Source: Cytobacillus oceanisediminis 2691 (lineage in GTDB: Bacteria > Bacillota > Bacilli > Bacillales > Cytobacillaceae). Taken from it: a DNA stretch of 64,000 nucleotides. Below are positions 5,584 to 57,355 of the stretch, piece after piece (the stretch's first letter is position 1; every line of letters begins with the position of its first letter). Location of the stretch: positions 105,535 to 169,534 of the forward strand of contig NZ_VEEP01000002.1 in assembly GCF_007678455.1 (NCBI RefSeq), written 5' to 3'. A program made the position numbers and the translations under genes. A model generated the notes under the pieces. That model was not told where the DNA came from. It was given only the letters and a program-made list of their open reading frames with translations, and searched no databases.

Positions 5584-6975
5584 TTACCCTGCATTTGAAA
5601 TGTTCGTTTGATGATCTTTTTTATGGAAACCTTTAGCAAAGTAAAAGCCTGTTAGAAGCGCCAGCCACAGAGGCCCTATGAAAAGTGCGATTCTTGTGTC
5701 AGGGCTGAAGGCCATCAGTACGACTACAAAAGCCAGGAACGCCAATGATAAATAGGAAGTGAACGGAAACAATGGCAGCTTATATTTTAGCTTGTCCACT
5801 TCATTTTTGCGCAGGCTTTTGCGGTAACGAATCTGTGACAGGAGAATGATCGCCCAGGTCCAGATTGCCCCAAACGTCGCAATACTTGTAACCCAGGCAA
5901 ATACTTTTGCCGGGACAATGTAATTCAAGGCGACCCCAATCAGCAATGCGCCAGCCGAGGCGAGAATGGCAAATCCCGGAACCCCGTTCTTGGTCAATTT
6001 GCTGAATTTCTGTGGCGCTTCTCCATGGTTGGCAAGATTGAACAGCATTCGTCCTGTGCTGAAGATTCCGCTATTGCAGGATGATAGTGCAGCAGTCAAT
6101 ACTACGAAATTGATGATGCCCGCTGCAGCAGGAATTCCTAATTGTTCGAAAGTGATAACAAACGGACTTCCCTTTTCCCCAATCTCATTCCATGGGAAGA
6201 TAGACATAATAACAAACAATGCCCCGACATAGAAAATCAGGATGCGCCAGAATACTGAATCAATCGCTCTGGAAAGTGATTTCTCAGGATTCTTGACTTC
6301 ACCAGCAGTAATACCGATCATCTCGATTCCAAGGTAGGCAAACATGACCATTTGCAGCGATAACAGGACGCCTTTAATCCCGTTAGGAAATAAGCCGCCA
6401 TTCTCCCATAGATTTTGGATCCCTGTTGGAATGCCTCCATTGCCGATTCCCCATATGATCATGCCGGCCCCTGAGACAATCATCGCTAAAATCGTGACAA
6501 TTTTAATCAACGCAAACCAGAATTCAAGTTCCCCATACGCTTTTACAGCCAGGAAATTGACTGATGCCATAATCACCAGGGCAGCTAGCGCCCATATCCA
6601 GCGTGGAGTTTCCGGAAACCAGAATTCCATGTAAATCCCGACGGCAGTGATTTCCGCCATGCCAGTTACAATCCATAAAAACCAATAGTTCCAGCCAGTA
6701 ATATACCCTGCCAGCGGACCAAGGTAATCCCTGGCATATTTACTGAATGATCCCGCAACCGGCTTTTGGATTGCCATTTCCCCCAGAGCTCTCATAATGA
6801 AGAACATGATCATTCCGCTGAAAGCATAACCCAGCAGGATTCCCGGACCTGCCAGCTTTATTGCAGATGCAGATCCCAGGAACAGTCCGACCCCGATTGC
6901 TGCCCCTAAAGACATCAGTGTTATGTGCCTCTGCTCCAACCCCCGCTGCAGTTCATTCTCTTGTGTTTTTTTCAT
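5584..6975 (-). CDS. Amino acid permease, APC superfamily (AAT type)
   Basis: A 463-residue, 12-helix transporter. The N terminus (ELQRGLEQRHITLMSLGAAI, then GVGLFLGS) is the classic helix 1 signature of proton-coupled amino acid permeases such as AapA, YtnA, ProY and GabP. ATG 6975 is chosen because GAGGGAAG precedes it; the open frame extends 31 codons further to 7068 but that part is Gly/Tyr-rich and unlike the family. The substrate is not determinable. The leader between 6976 and about 7100 contains small G-rich stems but no recognised riboswitch. Confidence 0.88.
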   Translation of the reverse strand: MKKTQENELQRGLEQRHITLMSLGAAIGVGLFLGSASAIKLAGPGILLGYAFSGMIMFFIMRALGEMAIQKPVAGSFSKYARDYLGPLAGYITGWNYWFLWIVTGMAEITAVGIYMEFWFPETPRWIWALAALVIMASVNFLAVKAYGELEFWFALIKIVTILAMIVSGAGMIIWGIGNGGIPTGIQNLWENGGLFPNGIKGVLLSLQMVMFAYLGIEMIGITAGEVKNPEKSLSRAIDSVFWRILIFYVGALFVIMSIFPWNEIGEKGSPFVITFEQLGIPAAAGIINFVVLTAALSSCNSGIFSTGRMLFNLANHGEAPQKFSKLTKNGVPGFAILASAGALLIGVALNYIVPAKVFAWVTSIATFGAIWTWAIILLSQIRYRKSLRKNEVDKLKYKLPLFPFTSYLSLAFLAFVVVLMAFSPDTRIALFIGPLWLALLTGFYFAKGFHKKDHQTNISNAG

Positions 6976-11654: not shown

Positions 11655-11680
11655 AAAGCAAAGTAAGAAAATTTCTCTCA

Positions 11681-11778
11681 CACTACTTTCCTACGCTGGT
11701 ATTACCCAGATCAGGTCCGAAGGGTTAAAAGACTTAGCGTCTTCCTCTCAGCCCGCAGCAGGGCACCCCTAGTAGTAA
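11681..11778 (-). promoter_or_regulatory. TPP riboswitch (THI element)
   Basis: The minus strand shows the conserved GGGGTGCCC, GGCTGAGA, ACCCTT, GGACCTGATCTGG and TAATACCAGCGTAGGAA blocks in order. The closing P1 stem is actact (11772-11777) with agtagt (11683-11688). Binding of thiamine pyrophosphate should repress the five downstream genes by termination. Confidence 0.97.
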
Positions 11779-11800
11779 ATCGAATATTCAATTGTCTTTA

Positions 11801-14530: not shown

Positions 14531-14680
14531 ATTGGCGAACTGGAAAAAAACCTTCAAAATTACCAGTTCGCCAATAAATTTTCATTTTAGCCAATAATTC
14601 AGGTGATTTCGCCAATAAAAATATATTTTCGCCAATAAAATTGTGAACTCCGCCAATAAAATAGCTTTTTCGCCAATAAA
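14531..14680 (+). repeat. Intergenic repeat array A1 (GCCAATAAA family)
   Basis: The 305-nt gap between two co-directional genes is largely this array. It opens with a perfect 13-bp inverted repeat (attggcgaactgg 14531-14543, ccagttcgccaat 14563-14575) spanning 45 nt, then repeats GCCAATAA with G at 14570, 14590, 14611, 14631, 14652 and 14672, that is, steps of 20, 21, 20, 21, 20. A second array of the same family is at 24256-24370. From 14681 to 14833 I see only AT-rich promoter-like sequence. Confidence 0.85.
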
Positions 14681-14833
14681 AATTACCTGCTCTGATAATA
14701 TCCAGATTGATATTGGTTCCTCCCCCGCGACTTTTCAAGTTTTCCCCTAACTATTTACAAAACTCCCATATGGAACATTTTTTGTAATAAAAGGGGCAAT
14801 ATAATCAAAACTACCTATTTTTCAAGGAGTATC

Positions 14834-24171: not shown

Positions 24172-24255
24172 AAGAGTTTCGCTGCCGCCAACGGTGATAT
24201 ATCTTACACTTTTATGGCAAAGCAACTGAAAAAAATCATTGGAAATTTCCAGTTC

Positions 24256-24370
24256 GCCAATAAAGTTGTGAACATCGCCAATAAAATGTTTTTTTCGCCA
24301 AAATACTTGTTGAAATCGCCAATAAACCTAAATTTTCGCCAATAAAATTGTGAACTCCGCCAATAAAACA
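24256..24370 (+). repeat. Intergenic repeat array A2 (GCCAATAAA family)
   Basis: The second array of the family found at 14.5 kb. GCCAATAA (one copy decayed to GCCAAAAT) occurs with G at 24256, 24277, 24297, 24318, 24338 and 24359, steps of 21, 20, 21, 20, 21. The leader 24219-24255 still aligns with the A1 inverted repeat (ctgaaaaaaatcattgg..ccagttcgccaataaa), though its left arm has decayed. It lies between two minus-strand genes, beyond the terminator of the downstream-facing OYE gene. The remainder of the 379-nt gap is the bcd promoter region. Confidence 0.85.
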
Positions 24371-24380
24371 AAATTCACTC

Positions 24381-43400: not shown

Positions 43401-43436
43401 AAGCTGCCTGCAGAAGTCAGGCAGCTTCCTTTTCAT
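43401..43436 (+). terminator. Terminator of the MFS gene
   Basis: aagctgcctg pairs with caggcagctt, followed by CCTTTTCATTTT. It lies before the repeat array. Confidence 0.8.
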
Positions 43437-43484
43437 TTTGGATTCTTTTAATATATTAGGAAGTTTTAATTTGTCATTTTTATT

Positions 43485-43796
43485 ATGATGGACAATTTTC
43501 TCTTCCAAAACCGCATTTCTGTCCATCAGCGGGGTTATGATGGACAATTTTCTCTTCCAAAACCGCATTTCTGTCCGTCATCGGGGTTATGACGGACAAT
43601 TTTCTCTTTCAAAATCGCATTTCTGTCCGTCATCGAGGGTATGACGGACAATTTTCTCTTTCAGAACCGTGTTTCTGTCCGTCATCGAGCCTATGACGGA
43701 CAATTTTCACCTCTGACCTCGCTTTTCTGTCCATCATCGGGATGATGATGGACAATTCCCACTTCCAATCTCGTATTTCTGTCCGTCATGACCACA
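43485..43796. repeat. Intergenic repeat array B: six units of exactly 52 nt
   Basis: Units start at 43485, 43537, 43589, 43641, 43693 and 43745. Each is ATGAYGGACA, a 25-nt pyrimidine-rich spacer (core ATTTTCTCTT), TGTCCRTCAT, and a 7-nt link such as CGGGGTT. The right arm of each unit pairs perfectly with the left arm of the next across the 7-nt link. The variable base pair switches together (A-T, G-C, G-C, G-C, A-T). The array fills the 468-nt gap between convergent genes and is bounded by a terminator on each side. Confidence 0.95.
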
Positions 43797-43838
43797 ATAA
43801 AAAAACAGGCATCAACCGTGCGAGGTTGATGCCTGTTT
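43797..43838 (-). terminator. Terminator of the pnuC-nadR operon
   Basis: aacaggcatcaacc pairs perfectly with ggttgatgcctgtt, with a T-rich tail on the minus strand. Confidence 0.9.
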
Positions 43839-43854
43839 ATGAACTATTATGCCT

Positions 43855-44892
43855 TCACGAATTTGATAAAAGCTGATCCACGAGCTTAATCGCTTTTCGC
43901 AATCTTTTTTCATAGCTCCCTCTGATTGTCTCATAAGCTACCCCACGCTCATCCAGCATCTTTTTCAAAGCTTCGTTATTGGCTTCCCTGACAGCTTGTT
44001 CACCGAAGCTTCTGGTTCCATCATCAACCCACTCAACATCAGGTTCGAGGAACAGCCATAAATCATAGTTTTGGATGCTGGCAAGCGTGTCCAATACAGG
44101 CTGATGCTCGTTTACATACAGCAGGGAAAAATATTGGGTGACCACGGCTTCTGTATCAATAAATAATACTTTATTCGCACTTTCCAGCTGCTGCTTTTCA
44201 TGGTATTTATGTTCAATGGCGATTTCGGGAAAATCTGCTGGCTGGGTAATTGTTTCGCAATCTCCAAGTCTTTCGTAGTACGTACGGCCTGTTTCCTCAA
44301 CAAACGCTGTATTGTACAGGGCAGCAAGATTCCGGACAAGTGTGGATTTTCCACAGCTCTCTGTTCCGACAATGACTACCTTTTTTACAAAGAAAGTCCT
44401 GACCGGCTGAGGAAGCAACTCCCAGTGCTTCAGGGCCCCATCCTGTCTGATCGCTGTCGCCGAAACCGGATACTTCTCGCGGGCGGCATCAATCACAATA
44501 TGCTCTGCTTTTGGATATAGAACATCAAAGTATTCGCTATAACGAGGTTCGGAACTGAAAACAACATCAATTTCTTTTCCAATCGCTTGCTTGATTGCAT
44601 CCGCTCCTTTTTCCCAATCAGAAAATTGTCCTGTCTGTATTTCTTCAATGGCATGGACATGGACATGCGCCAGGTCCTTCGTCAACTGCTTCCACCATCT
44701 GATACGTTGTCTAAAAGGAATATAAGGAATTCTGGCATCCTTAAAAAGGACATTTTTCTCATACTCAGTATCATAGGAAACAATGACATGAAGTTCATCA
44801 ACCATTGTACTTGCTTTAATCATTGCGTAGACGTGCCCAAGATGTACTGGGACAAATTTGCCCCCATACATCCCTACTTTGCCAATCATCAT
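43855..44892 (-). CDS. nadR: NadR-type NMN adenylyltransferase / ribosylnicotinamide kinase
   Basis: A 345-residue two-domain enzyme. N-terminal nucleotidyltransferase with GMYGGKFVPVHLGHVYAMI (HxGH) and PVSATAIRQDG; C-terminal kinase with Walker A VGTESCGKSTLVRNL and LFIDTEAVVTQYF. The N-terminal repressor domain of enteric NadR is absent. It phosphorylates imported nicotinamide riboside and adenylates NMN to NAD. Overlaps pnuC by 4 nt. Confidence 0.92.
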   Translation of the reverse strand: MMIGKVGMYGGKFVPVHLGHVYAMIKASTMVDELHVIVSYDTEYEKNVLFKDARIPYIPFRQRIRWWKQLTKDLAHVHVHAIEEIQTGQFSDWEKGADAIKQAIGKEIDVVFSSEPRYSEYFDVLYPKAEHIVIDAAREKYPVSATAIRQDGALKHWELLPQPVRTFFVKKVVIVGTESCGKSTLVRNLAALYNTAFVEETGRTYYERLGDCETITQPADFPEIAIEHKYHEKQQLESANKVLFIDTEAVVTQYFSLLYVNEHQPVLDTLASIQNYDLWLFLEPDVEWVDDGTRSFGEQAVREANNEALKKMLDERGVAYETIRGSYEKRLRKAIKLVDQLLSNS

Positions 44893-50944: not shown

Positions 50945-51352
50945 TATTTTTCCCCTAATTCTTCCTGGGCACTTTTTCAGACACATATTCTCTCTTTATG
51001 TGACCCAAATCTTCCTGTGGGCACTTTTCCGGGAACATATTCCCTTTTTATGTGACCCAAATCTTCCTGCCGGCGCTTTTTTGGGCACATATTCCCTTTT
51101 TATGTGACCCAAATCTTCCTGTGGGCACTTTTTCGGGCACATATACCCTTTTTATGTGACCCAAATCTTCCTGTGGGCGCTTTTCCGGGAACATATTCCC
51201 TTTTTATGTGACCCAAATCTTCCTACCGGCGCTTTTTCGGGCACATATTTCCTTTTTATGTGACCTAAATCCTCACGTTCGCACTTTTCCGGGCACATAT
51301 TCCCTTTTTATGTGACTCAAATCTTCCTATGGGAGCTTTTTCGGGCTATATA
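50945..51352. repeat. Intergenic repeat array C: 52-nt units, GTGACCC family
   Basis: TATGTGACCC starts at 50997, 51049, 51101, 51153, 51205, 51257 and 51309, every step exactly 52 nt; a partial unit precedes (50945-50996) and a decayed one follows. Each unit has a hairpin gggcacata-(9 nt)-tatgtgAccc with one bulge, then a 24-nt spacer starting AAATCTTCCT. It sits in the 882-nt gap between the half-Spo0M and DUF5667 genes, downstream of the gene-less Mn riboswitch. 50758-50944 shows only AT-rich sequence. Confidence 0.95.
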
Positions 51353-52984: not shown

Positions 52985-53068
52985 ACCTTCGGCAACTGGC
53001 TGGCATGGTCATGACTTTAGCCCCTGTAGTTTTGCGTCCCCAGGTTTCCCTGGATTTGCCTTTATCGG
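52985..53068 (-). promoter_or_regulatory. c-di-GMP-I riboswitch (GEMM-I)
   Basis: The minus strand reads GGCAAATCCAGG-GAAA-CCTGGGGACGCAAA, then ACTACAGGGGCTAAA, AUGCCAGCC-type block and TTGCCGA. The GNRA tetraloop helix (ccagg/cctgg), the GGGACGCAAA strand and the closing GGCAA/TTGCC stem match class I c-di-GMP riboswitches. The terminator downstream makes it a transcription switch for the DUF5667 gene. Confidence 0.93.
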
Positions 53069-53141
53069 ATTTTAATTCTACTTTTATCATACTTATTCGA
53101 CACGAAAAAATAAATAAAAATTTTTAAAGTTTGCACCACAG

Positions 53142-54187: not shown

Positions 54188-54208
54188 ATAAATTTGGCTT
54201 TTAAATAT

Positions 54209-54246
54209 CGTGGTTCGTAACCATCCCACGTAAAAAAACTAGGAGA
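54209..54246 (+). promoter_or_regulatory. preQ1-I riboswitch
   Basis: cgtgg-ttcgtaacCATCccacg forms the P1 hairpin, and the A-rich tail TAAAAAAACTAGGAG docks as in preQ1 class I aptamers. The tail includes the AGGAG ribosome site of queT, so binding of preQ1 should block translation. Confidence 0.92.
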
Positions 54247-54253
54247 GATGAAA

Positions 54254-57200: not shown

Positions 57201-57355
57201 CTCTTTCGGACAGTTTTACTACCATTCTCGGAAAATGTGTCCATTAGAACCTCTCTATCGGACACTCTTACAACCTTTCTATGAAAAAGTGTCCGTTAGA
57301 ACCCCTCTATCGGACAGTTTTACAGCCATTCTCGCGAAAAGTGTCCGTTAGAGAT
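57201..57355. repeat. Intergenic repeat array D: three 52-nt units, TCGGACA family
   Basis: CGGACA starts at 57207, 57259 and 57311, steps of exactly 52 nt. Each unit is CTATCGGACA, a 25-nt spacer, TGTCCRTTAG and a 7-nt link (aacctct, aacccct). The right arm pairs with the next left arm (TGTCC/GGACA and TAG/CTA, with one or two inner mismatches). It lies in the 558-nt gap between two minus-strand genes; 56910-57200 holds no recognisable feature. Confidence 0.9.

Follow-up and report, generated by a model that had tools for sequence, protein, structure and literature searches.

A six-unit palindromic array in Cytobacillus oceanisediminis belongs to the Bacillus 52-nt tandem repeats, which share a common geometry and an orientation along replication

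What is a tandem array of palindromic units doing between the ends of two converging genes, and does it act as DNA or as RNA? The array (43485..43789, no strand assigned) has six units and lies in a window of 64,000 nt, the whole stretch of Cytobacillus oceanisediminis 2691 DNA that was analysed. It is noncoding and intergenic, sitting between the stops of an MFS transporter gene (PF07690, 42184..43386, + strand) and a NadR-like gene (43855..44892, − strand), a name which is our reading of its paired PF01467 and PF13521 domains. The NadR-like gene adjoins an NMN transporter gene (PF04973, 44892-45632, − strand), together a NAD salvage pair. A first-pass annotation of the sequence had described six units repeating at exactly 52 nt, and our reading of the sequence and TRF (43483-43789, period 52, 5.9 copies, score 376) agree with it. 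Each unit reads ATGAYGGACA, 25 nt, TGTCCRTCAT, with 7-nt links between units, and each junction is a single 27-nt dyad, TGTCC-N17-GGACA. The arms pair over the links at all five junctions as had been described (9/10 at the first), the variable pair runs A-T, G-C, G-C, G-C, A-T, and the misfits of the alternative pairing (one C-A, two wobbles) are present by eye. Terminators had been placed on both sides facing the array, and terminator-like hairpins indeed point at it from 3′ of the MFS gene (43401..43427, + strand) and from 3′ of the NadR-like gene (43803..43838, − strand). The terminator scan around the array found four such hairpins against a shuffle mean of 0.5, and scored two hairpins of the array itself as terminator-like on the + strand, with the tail ATTTTC. 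The array folds strongly both as DNA (z −7.15) and as − strand RNA (z −5.73), neither value being equalled in 100 dinucleotide shuffles. Rfam at gathering score returned three riboswitches in the window, TPP (11671-11780, −), c-di-GMP-I (52988-53070, −) and PreQ1 (54204-54248, +), and no match at any array. A CRISPR array was rejected, as here the whole 52-nt unit including its spacer recurs, whereas CRISPR arrays have unique spacers between identical repeats.

The form of the array is not new to Bacillus, contrary to the first-pass annotation, which knew of no such element. Tandem repeats of 52 nt, constant in length and variable in sequence, were reported in about 30 percent of the Bacillus species studied by Subirana and Messeguer (2021, PMC8161180), as noncoding DNA with several families per genome, species-specific sequences and differences between strains; B. 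selenatarsenatis had 82 tandem repeats, common to boroniphilus and subterraneus. The present array belongs to this class: its period falls within 51-53 nt with at least four copies (52 nt, 5.9 copies), it is likewise noncoding and intergenic, its genome carries several families of equal period and differing sequence, and the arrays studied here are only partly conserved across strains and species. The window itself holds a second 52-nt array of a different family (GGGCACATA / TATGTGACC, 50966..51346) and a third of a different family again (TGTCCGTTAGA / TCTATCGGACA, 57201..57352), both found by TRF and dyad alignment, without assigned strand, and both keeping a layout of 27 + 25 nt. A BLAST search with the six-unit array returned 21 matches in its own genome, itself included, and in 844 kb sampled from that genome (40 stretches plus the window) TRF found 31 arrays of period 52 or 53 in several arm families. 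Shorter tandem repeats of ~20-21 and 41 nt also occur in the window (TRF, 14607-14683 and 24253-24375), a second size class published for Bacillus (PMC8161180).

These 52-nt satellites have so far been a puzzle, with a constant length, no shared sequence and no known function. The available part of the original report found no function, proposed small RNAs or a nucleoid protein, and described sequence conservation between families as absent; the words palindrome, hairpin and terminator do not occur in that part. Transcription of 52-nt repeats has been seen by RNA-seq in B. coagulans (PMC8625621). New here are a geometry common to the families, arm pairing across families and orientation along replication. 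Neither the 27 + 25 layout nor the orientation appears in the available text of PMC8161180, and searches of the open-licence PMC literature turned up no earlier report of any of the three features. A paper on triplex repeats (PMC4666352) was considered as an earlier treatment and set aside, its available text having a different subject from the 52-nt element.

To describe the geometry, 63 arrays from five genomes (1.64 Mb) were aligned on their dyads. The layout common to the families is KGTC-N19-GACM, a 27-nt dyad, followed by a 25-nt spacer, with the tetramers occupying offsets 10 to 13, counted from the centre of the dyad; it is exact in 39 of the 63 arrays. A or T predominates at offsets 16 to 18, and the spacer, of 25 or 26 nt, mostly carries AAA immediately ahead of the next site. 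The commonest families have the dyad KGTCM-N17-KGACM, and the GGGTA family has a period of 53 instead of 52. A relaxed template fits 54 of 63, including the GGGTA / TACCC and GGGCAC families, and nine fall outside even this, several of them by one letter. As a dimer geometry, spacings of 19 and 25 gave 177 matches in the 1.64 Mb, none of the 1035 other spacing pairs giving more than four. G006, a complete chromosome sampled at 50 places, was left out of one template, which was then applied to it (34 rows representing 33 arrays, one split in two), and 25 of 34 rows beat 200/200 shuffles. Without the stretch orthologous to the template arrays, 16 of 22 rows beat all 200, although arrays new to the template may still belong to families of template arrays; for the other six rows between 1 and 18 of the 200 shuffles did as well, and for one row within the orthologous stretch 76/200 did. 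Among the published consensus repeats, KGTC and GACM stand exactly 27 apart in 5 of 27 (at most two in 2000 shuffled sets), and the stem was unreached by 100 shuffles in 15 of 27. Two further loci, L182 (G032) and L186 (G034), carry 52-nt arrays with TGAAC / GTTCA-like arms, ~27 nt across by eye and without the KGTC tetramer.

The arms of the dyad pair beyond the shared tetramers. The search pattern sets no pairing requirement between its tetramers, and the inner arms (offsets 4 to 9) nonetheless pair at 0.682 over 67 sites, compared with 0.351 when re-paired across sites (highest of 2000 re-pairing nulls, 0.435), and at 0.707 compared with 0.333 over 25 sites in other genera. The inner arms differ from family to family within one genome, and because their pairing exceeds the re-paired null, complementarity has been retained between families while the sequence changed. 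Inside arrays the picture differs. The first-pass annotation took the co-varying pair as selection or copying acting on the short-loop hairpin, a conclusion that does not generalise: in the variable stem columns of 63 arrays, agreement is 1157/1354 for short-loop pairs (0.855), 1134/1336 across the spacer (0.849) and 10818/12755 for distant pairs, and arrays prefer the short loop in 31 cases, the across-spacer pairing in 21 and neither in 7 (sign test p 0.21). In the six-unit array alone the figures are 9/10 and 8/12, so its compensatory series is real, yet no proof of a short-loop hairpin, and covariation within arrays was dropped as such a proof. Because the two arms of a hairpin resemble each other no better than they do other arms of the same array, selection on single hairpins is invisible at that scale; arrays seem to homogenise as wholes. 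Stem misfits comprise 82 G-T, 62 A-C and 299 others (19 vs. 17 by array), roughly balanced between the first two; with no clear wobble asymmetry there is no sign of wobble selection on one RNA strand, and the balance argues weakly against it.

The arrays are oriented along replication. The leading strand was set by the majority gene strand and checked by GC skew, the two agreeing in 8/8 segments and 83/83 pieces of 20 kb, and purine content was taken outside the arms. Purines prevail on the leading strand in 60 of 63 arrays (mean 0.611), compared with 346 of 514 gaps without an array (mean 0.521), and for the spacer alone leading-strand purines were above, below and equal in 53, 6 and 4 arrays, respectively. 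The three exceptions are G000:C332 306922-307192, G000:C422 119912-120820 and G012:C9 150678-150945. Where the nearby genes are co-directional on the lagging strand, 12/12 arrays still follow replication (mean 0.643), compared with 40/69 array-free gaps (mean 0.510), from which we conclude that the neighbouring gene does not set the orientation. Arrays between divergent genes showed no purine bias (5/7, mean 0.504). In G006 the sign of the GC skew switches between the samples at 2.52 and 2.64 Mb, and arrays follow it in 24/24 cases before the switch and 8/9 after (32/33). Over the whole G006 chromosome, the first 100 of 122 + strand matches to the A-tract form of the oriented pattern (apparently ordered by position) all lie below 2.33 Mb, and among the matches listed for the T-tract form (149 in all) 24 lie below 2.58 Mb, representing five arrays, one of them also A-tract. 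In other genera the local skew is followed by 18 of 22 pattern-bearing arrays and opposed by 4, or followed by 20 of 25 when three rows without the pattern are included. No probability is attached to these counts because related arrays are not independent.

How widely the element occurs was assessed with a fixed pattern of two adjacent units, using the backward pattern as a control, which provides a low-noise counter for the element in any genome. The pattern has 525 matches in G000 and 0 to 621 per genome across the genus. Within the family it is found in 150 of the 193 genomes and in 18 of 25 genera, compared with 11 of 193 genomes for the control (1 to 3 matches each), and is absent from 43 of the 193, including G011 and 13/13 of genus g20; with so many relatives lacking it, the element is dispensable. 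In the order sample it occurs in 47 of 199 genomes (five from the own genus) and 27 of 97 genera, against four genomes for the control, one with 13 matches, and in the phylum sample in 4 of 398, two of which are of the own genus and two have a single match each that looks like chance. An array of 50-54 nt was present in 6 of 80 named loci with the MFS gene, counting the retrieved stretch only. Two loci with the MFS gene, L189 and L205, bear the titles Chryseobacterium sp. ISL-80 and Pseudomonas sp. ISL-84 and have the gene at 96 and 74 percent identity; these genomes are probably mislabelled.

Copy number and family turn over at individual sites, a comparison which the first-pass annotation had proposed. 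At the site orthologous to the six-unit array in 20 genus loci (that of G007 ending at a contig edge), TRF found the same family in 2.3 to 6.8 copies in ten and none in the others, and by eye one unit is present in G018 and G015 and two in G002. The G016 site carries another 52-nt family in 11.2 copies together with remnants of the original, and in G008 the 53-nt family lies next to the original one. Between G000 and G006, genomes of one species, an array is present at 11/11 sites, three differing in length by about one or two units, and other species retain fewer than the 11/11 kept within the species. One site holds a 53-nt family in G000 and another family in G008; at 89337 G012 lacks an array, and at 6290 G010 has a remnant only, not an empty site. 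Array-free sites were too diverged to reveal any target duplications.

In gene contexts taken from a simple gene caller, all 62 arrays with calls on both sides lie in gaps between called genes, one gap having an additional called ORF; 12 are convergent, 43 co-directional and 7 divergent. The 54 trusted contexts (11, 38 and 5) compared with gaps of 150-1400 nt (82, 381 and 127) allow at most a shortage in divergent gaps, and a preference for convergent gaps was rejected. Terminator-like hairpins were found at 42 of 59 three-prime flanks of arrays vs. 306 of 587 array-free flanks (window lengths unmatched), a modest excess.

We favour action of the arrays at the DNA level, because their orientation tracks replication and not the neighbouring gene and their misfits are roughly balanced. 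To this extent the interpretation of the first-pass annotation stands, without its short-loop covariation and its undescribed form. The best explanation, which we hold tentatively and at somewhat less than an even chance, is a hairpin element acting as DNA: replication sets its orientation, its arrays gain or lose whole units, and it turns over among intergenic sites. Its unit is a 27-nt dyad able to fold into a hairpin, and the 25-nt spacer behind the dyad is rich in purines on the leading strand. We propose that the hairpins would arise in DNA, the likeliest place being the template of the lagging strand, whose sense is that of the purine-rich strand; this is the simplest arrangement in which pairing and an orientation along replication would both be needed. 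The foot of the hairpin may be recognised by a host factor linked to replication or by a copying process. Such recognition would expand arrays and allow them to spread, and may also mark or slow the fork; no candidate binding factor was found in this analysis. A wider claim, possible though on balance doubtful, is that an order-wide class of DNA hairpin arrays exists with one geometry and many sequences, oriented by replication and read by a dedicated host factor. If true, this would be a new type of chromosome element, one that couples DNA hairpins to the passage of the fork or to the segregation of chromosomes. With the 27 + 25 layout and the orientation, the puzzle of the 52-nt satellites becomes experimentally addressable.

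Unlikely, if far from negligible, is that the units, spaced by about five helical turns, are bound as duplex by a single oligomerising protein, which would organise the nucleoid or give a DNA translocase its direction, as the SRS do for SpoIIIE. The constant period, the fixed tetramer spacing and the orientation would all suit such a protein, a nucleoid protein was also proposed by Subirana and Messeguer (PMC8161180), and the SRS octamer of SpoIIIE (PMC5869595), GAGAAGGG, has 11 matches in 34.9 kb of arrays, all on the leading strand, vs. 49 in 2.40 Mb outside. Although denser than background, the octamer is present in just 6 of 85 arrays and was rejected as the shared signal. A reader of the tetramers alone needs no complementary inner arms, yet these pair and vary by family within a genome, and the GGGTA family stays at 53, not 52. 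A lower probability still, and a rather small one, goes to a functionless by-product, in which palindromic units grew by replication slippage and were homogenised in register, the purine bias being amplified strand composition. Copy number does shift by whole units within a species, arms are homogenised across arrays, many relatives lack arrays, and even ordinary intergenic DNA has a slight purine excess on the leading strand; against this, the same geometry is retained in many genera despite differing sequences, and the bias of the arrays is well above that of array-free gaps. We consider improbable an RNA-level role, in which a transcribed string of hairpins serves as a small RNA, a sponge or weak terminators, the pyrimidine-strand stem being followed by CTTTTC. 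The transcription published in B. coagulans speaks for such a role, as do the strong RNA fold and the two terminator-like hairpins of the six-unit array, but arrays beside co-directional lagging-strand genes still follow replication, G-T misfits are not in excess, no Rfam family matches the six-unit array and both of its neighbours have terminator-like hairpins of their own before it. That a HUH (Y1) transposase of the IS200/IS605 or RAYT kind builds and spreads the arrays is highly improbable, since PF01797, matched in 18 of 21 genus genomes, is absent from G016, G019 and G020 despite 516, 74 and 523 pattern matches (a lost or highly divergent enzyme could still account for this), even though the hairpins, the spread between genes and the orientation along replication are reminiscent of such systems, two of which, IS608 and ISDra2, target the template of the lagging strand (PMC6006769). 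Six near-equal PF01797 matches on G006:C1 (983832 to 3864313), missing in the same-species G000 assembly, are perhaps a recently active IS200-type element.

The DNA-level hairpin element that we favour has partial counterparts among known systems. Like the REP/BIME palindromes associated with RAYT, the arrays are intergenic, dispersed and made of grouped palindromes, and they differ in being long and homogeneous with a fixed 52-nt period, three array-bearing genomes having no Y1 transposase. With the SRS of SpoIIIE and the KOPS of FtsK they share purine richness and replication orientation, yet they are arrays of dyads, not single octamers. The CIRCE element bound by HrcA is also a 27-nt inverted repeat, although one that occurs as single operators of conserved sequence, and we know of no CIRCE arrays of this kind, whereas the present units form arrays. 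The attC sites of integrons are hairpins with conserved ends and a variable inner sequence, as are the dyads here, but unlike attC sites these have no gene cassettes between them.
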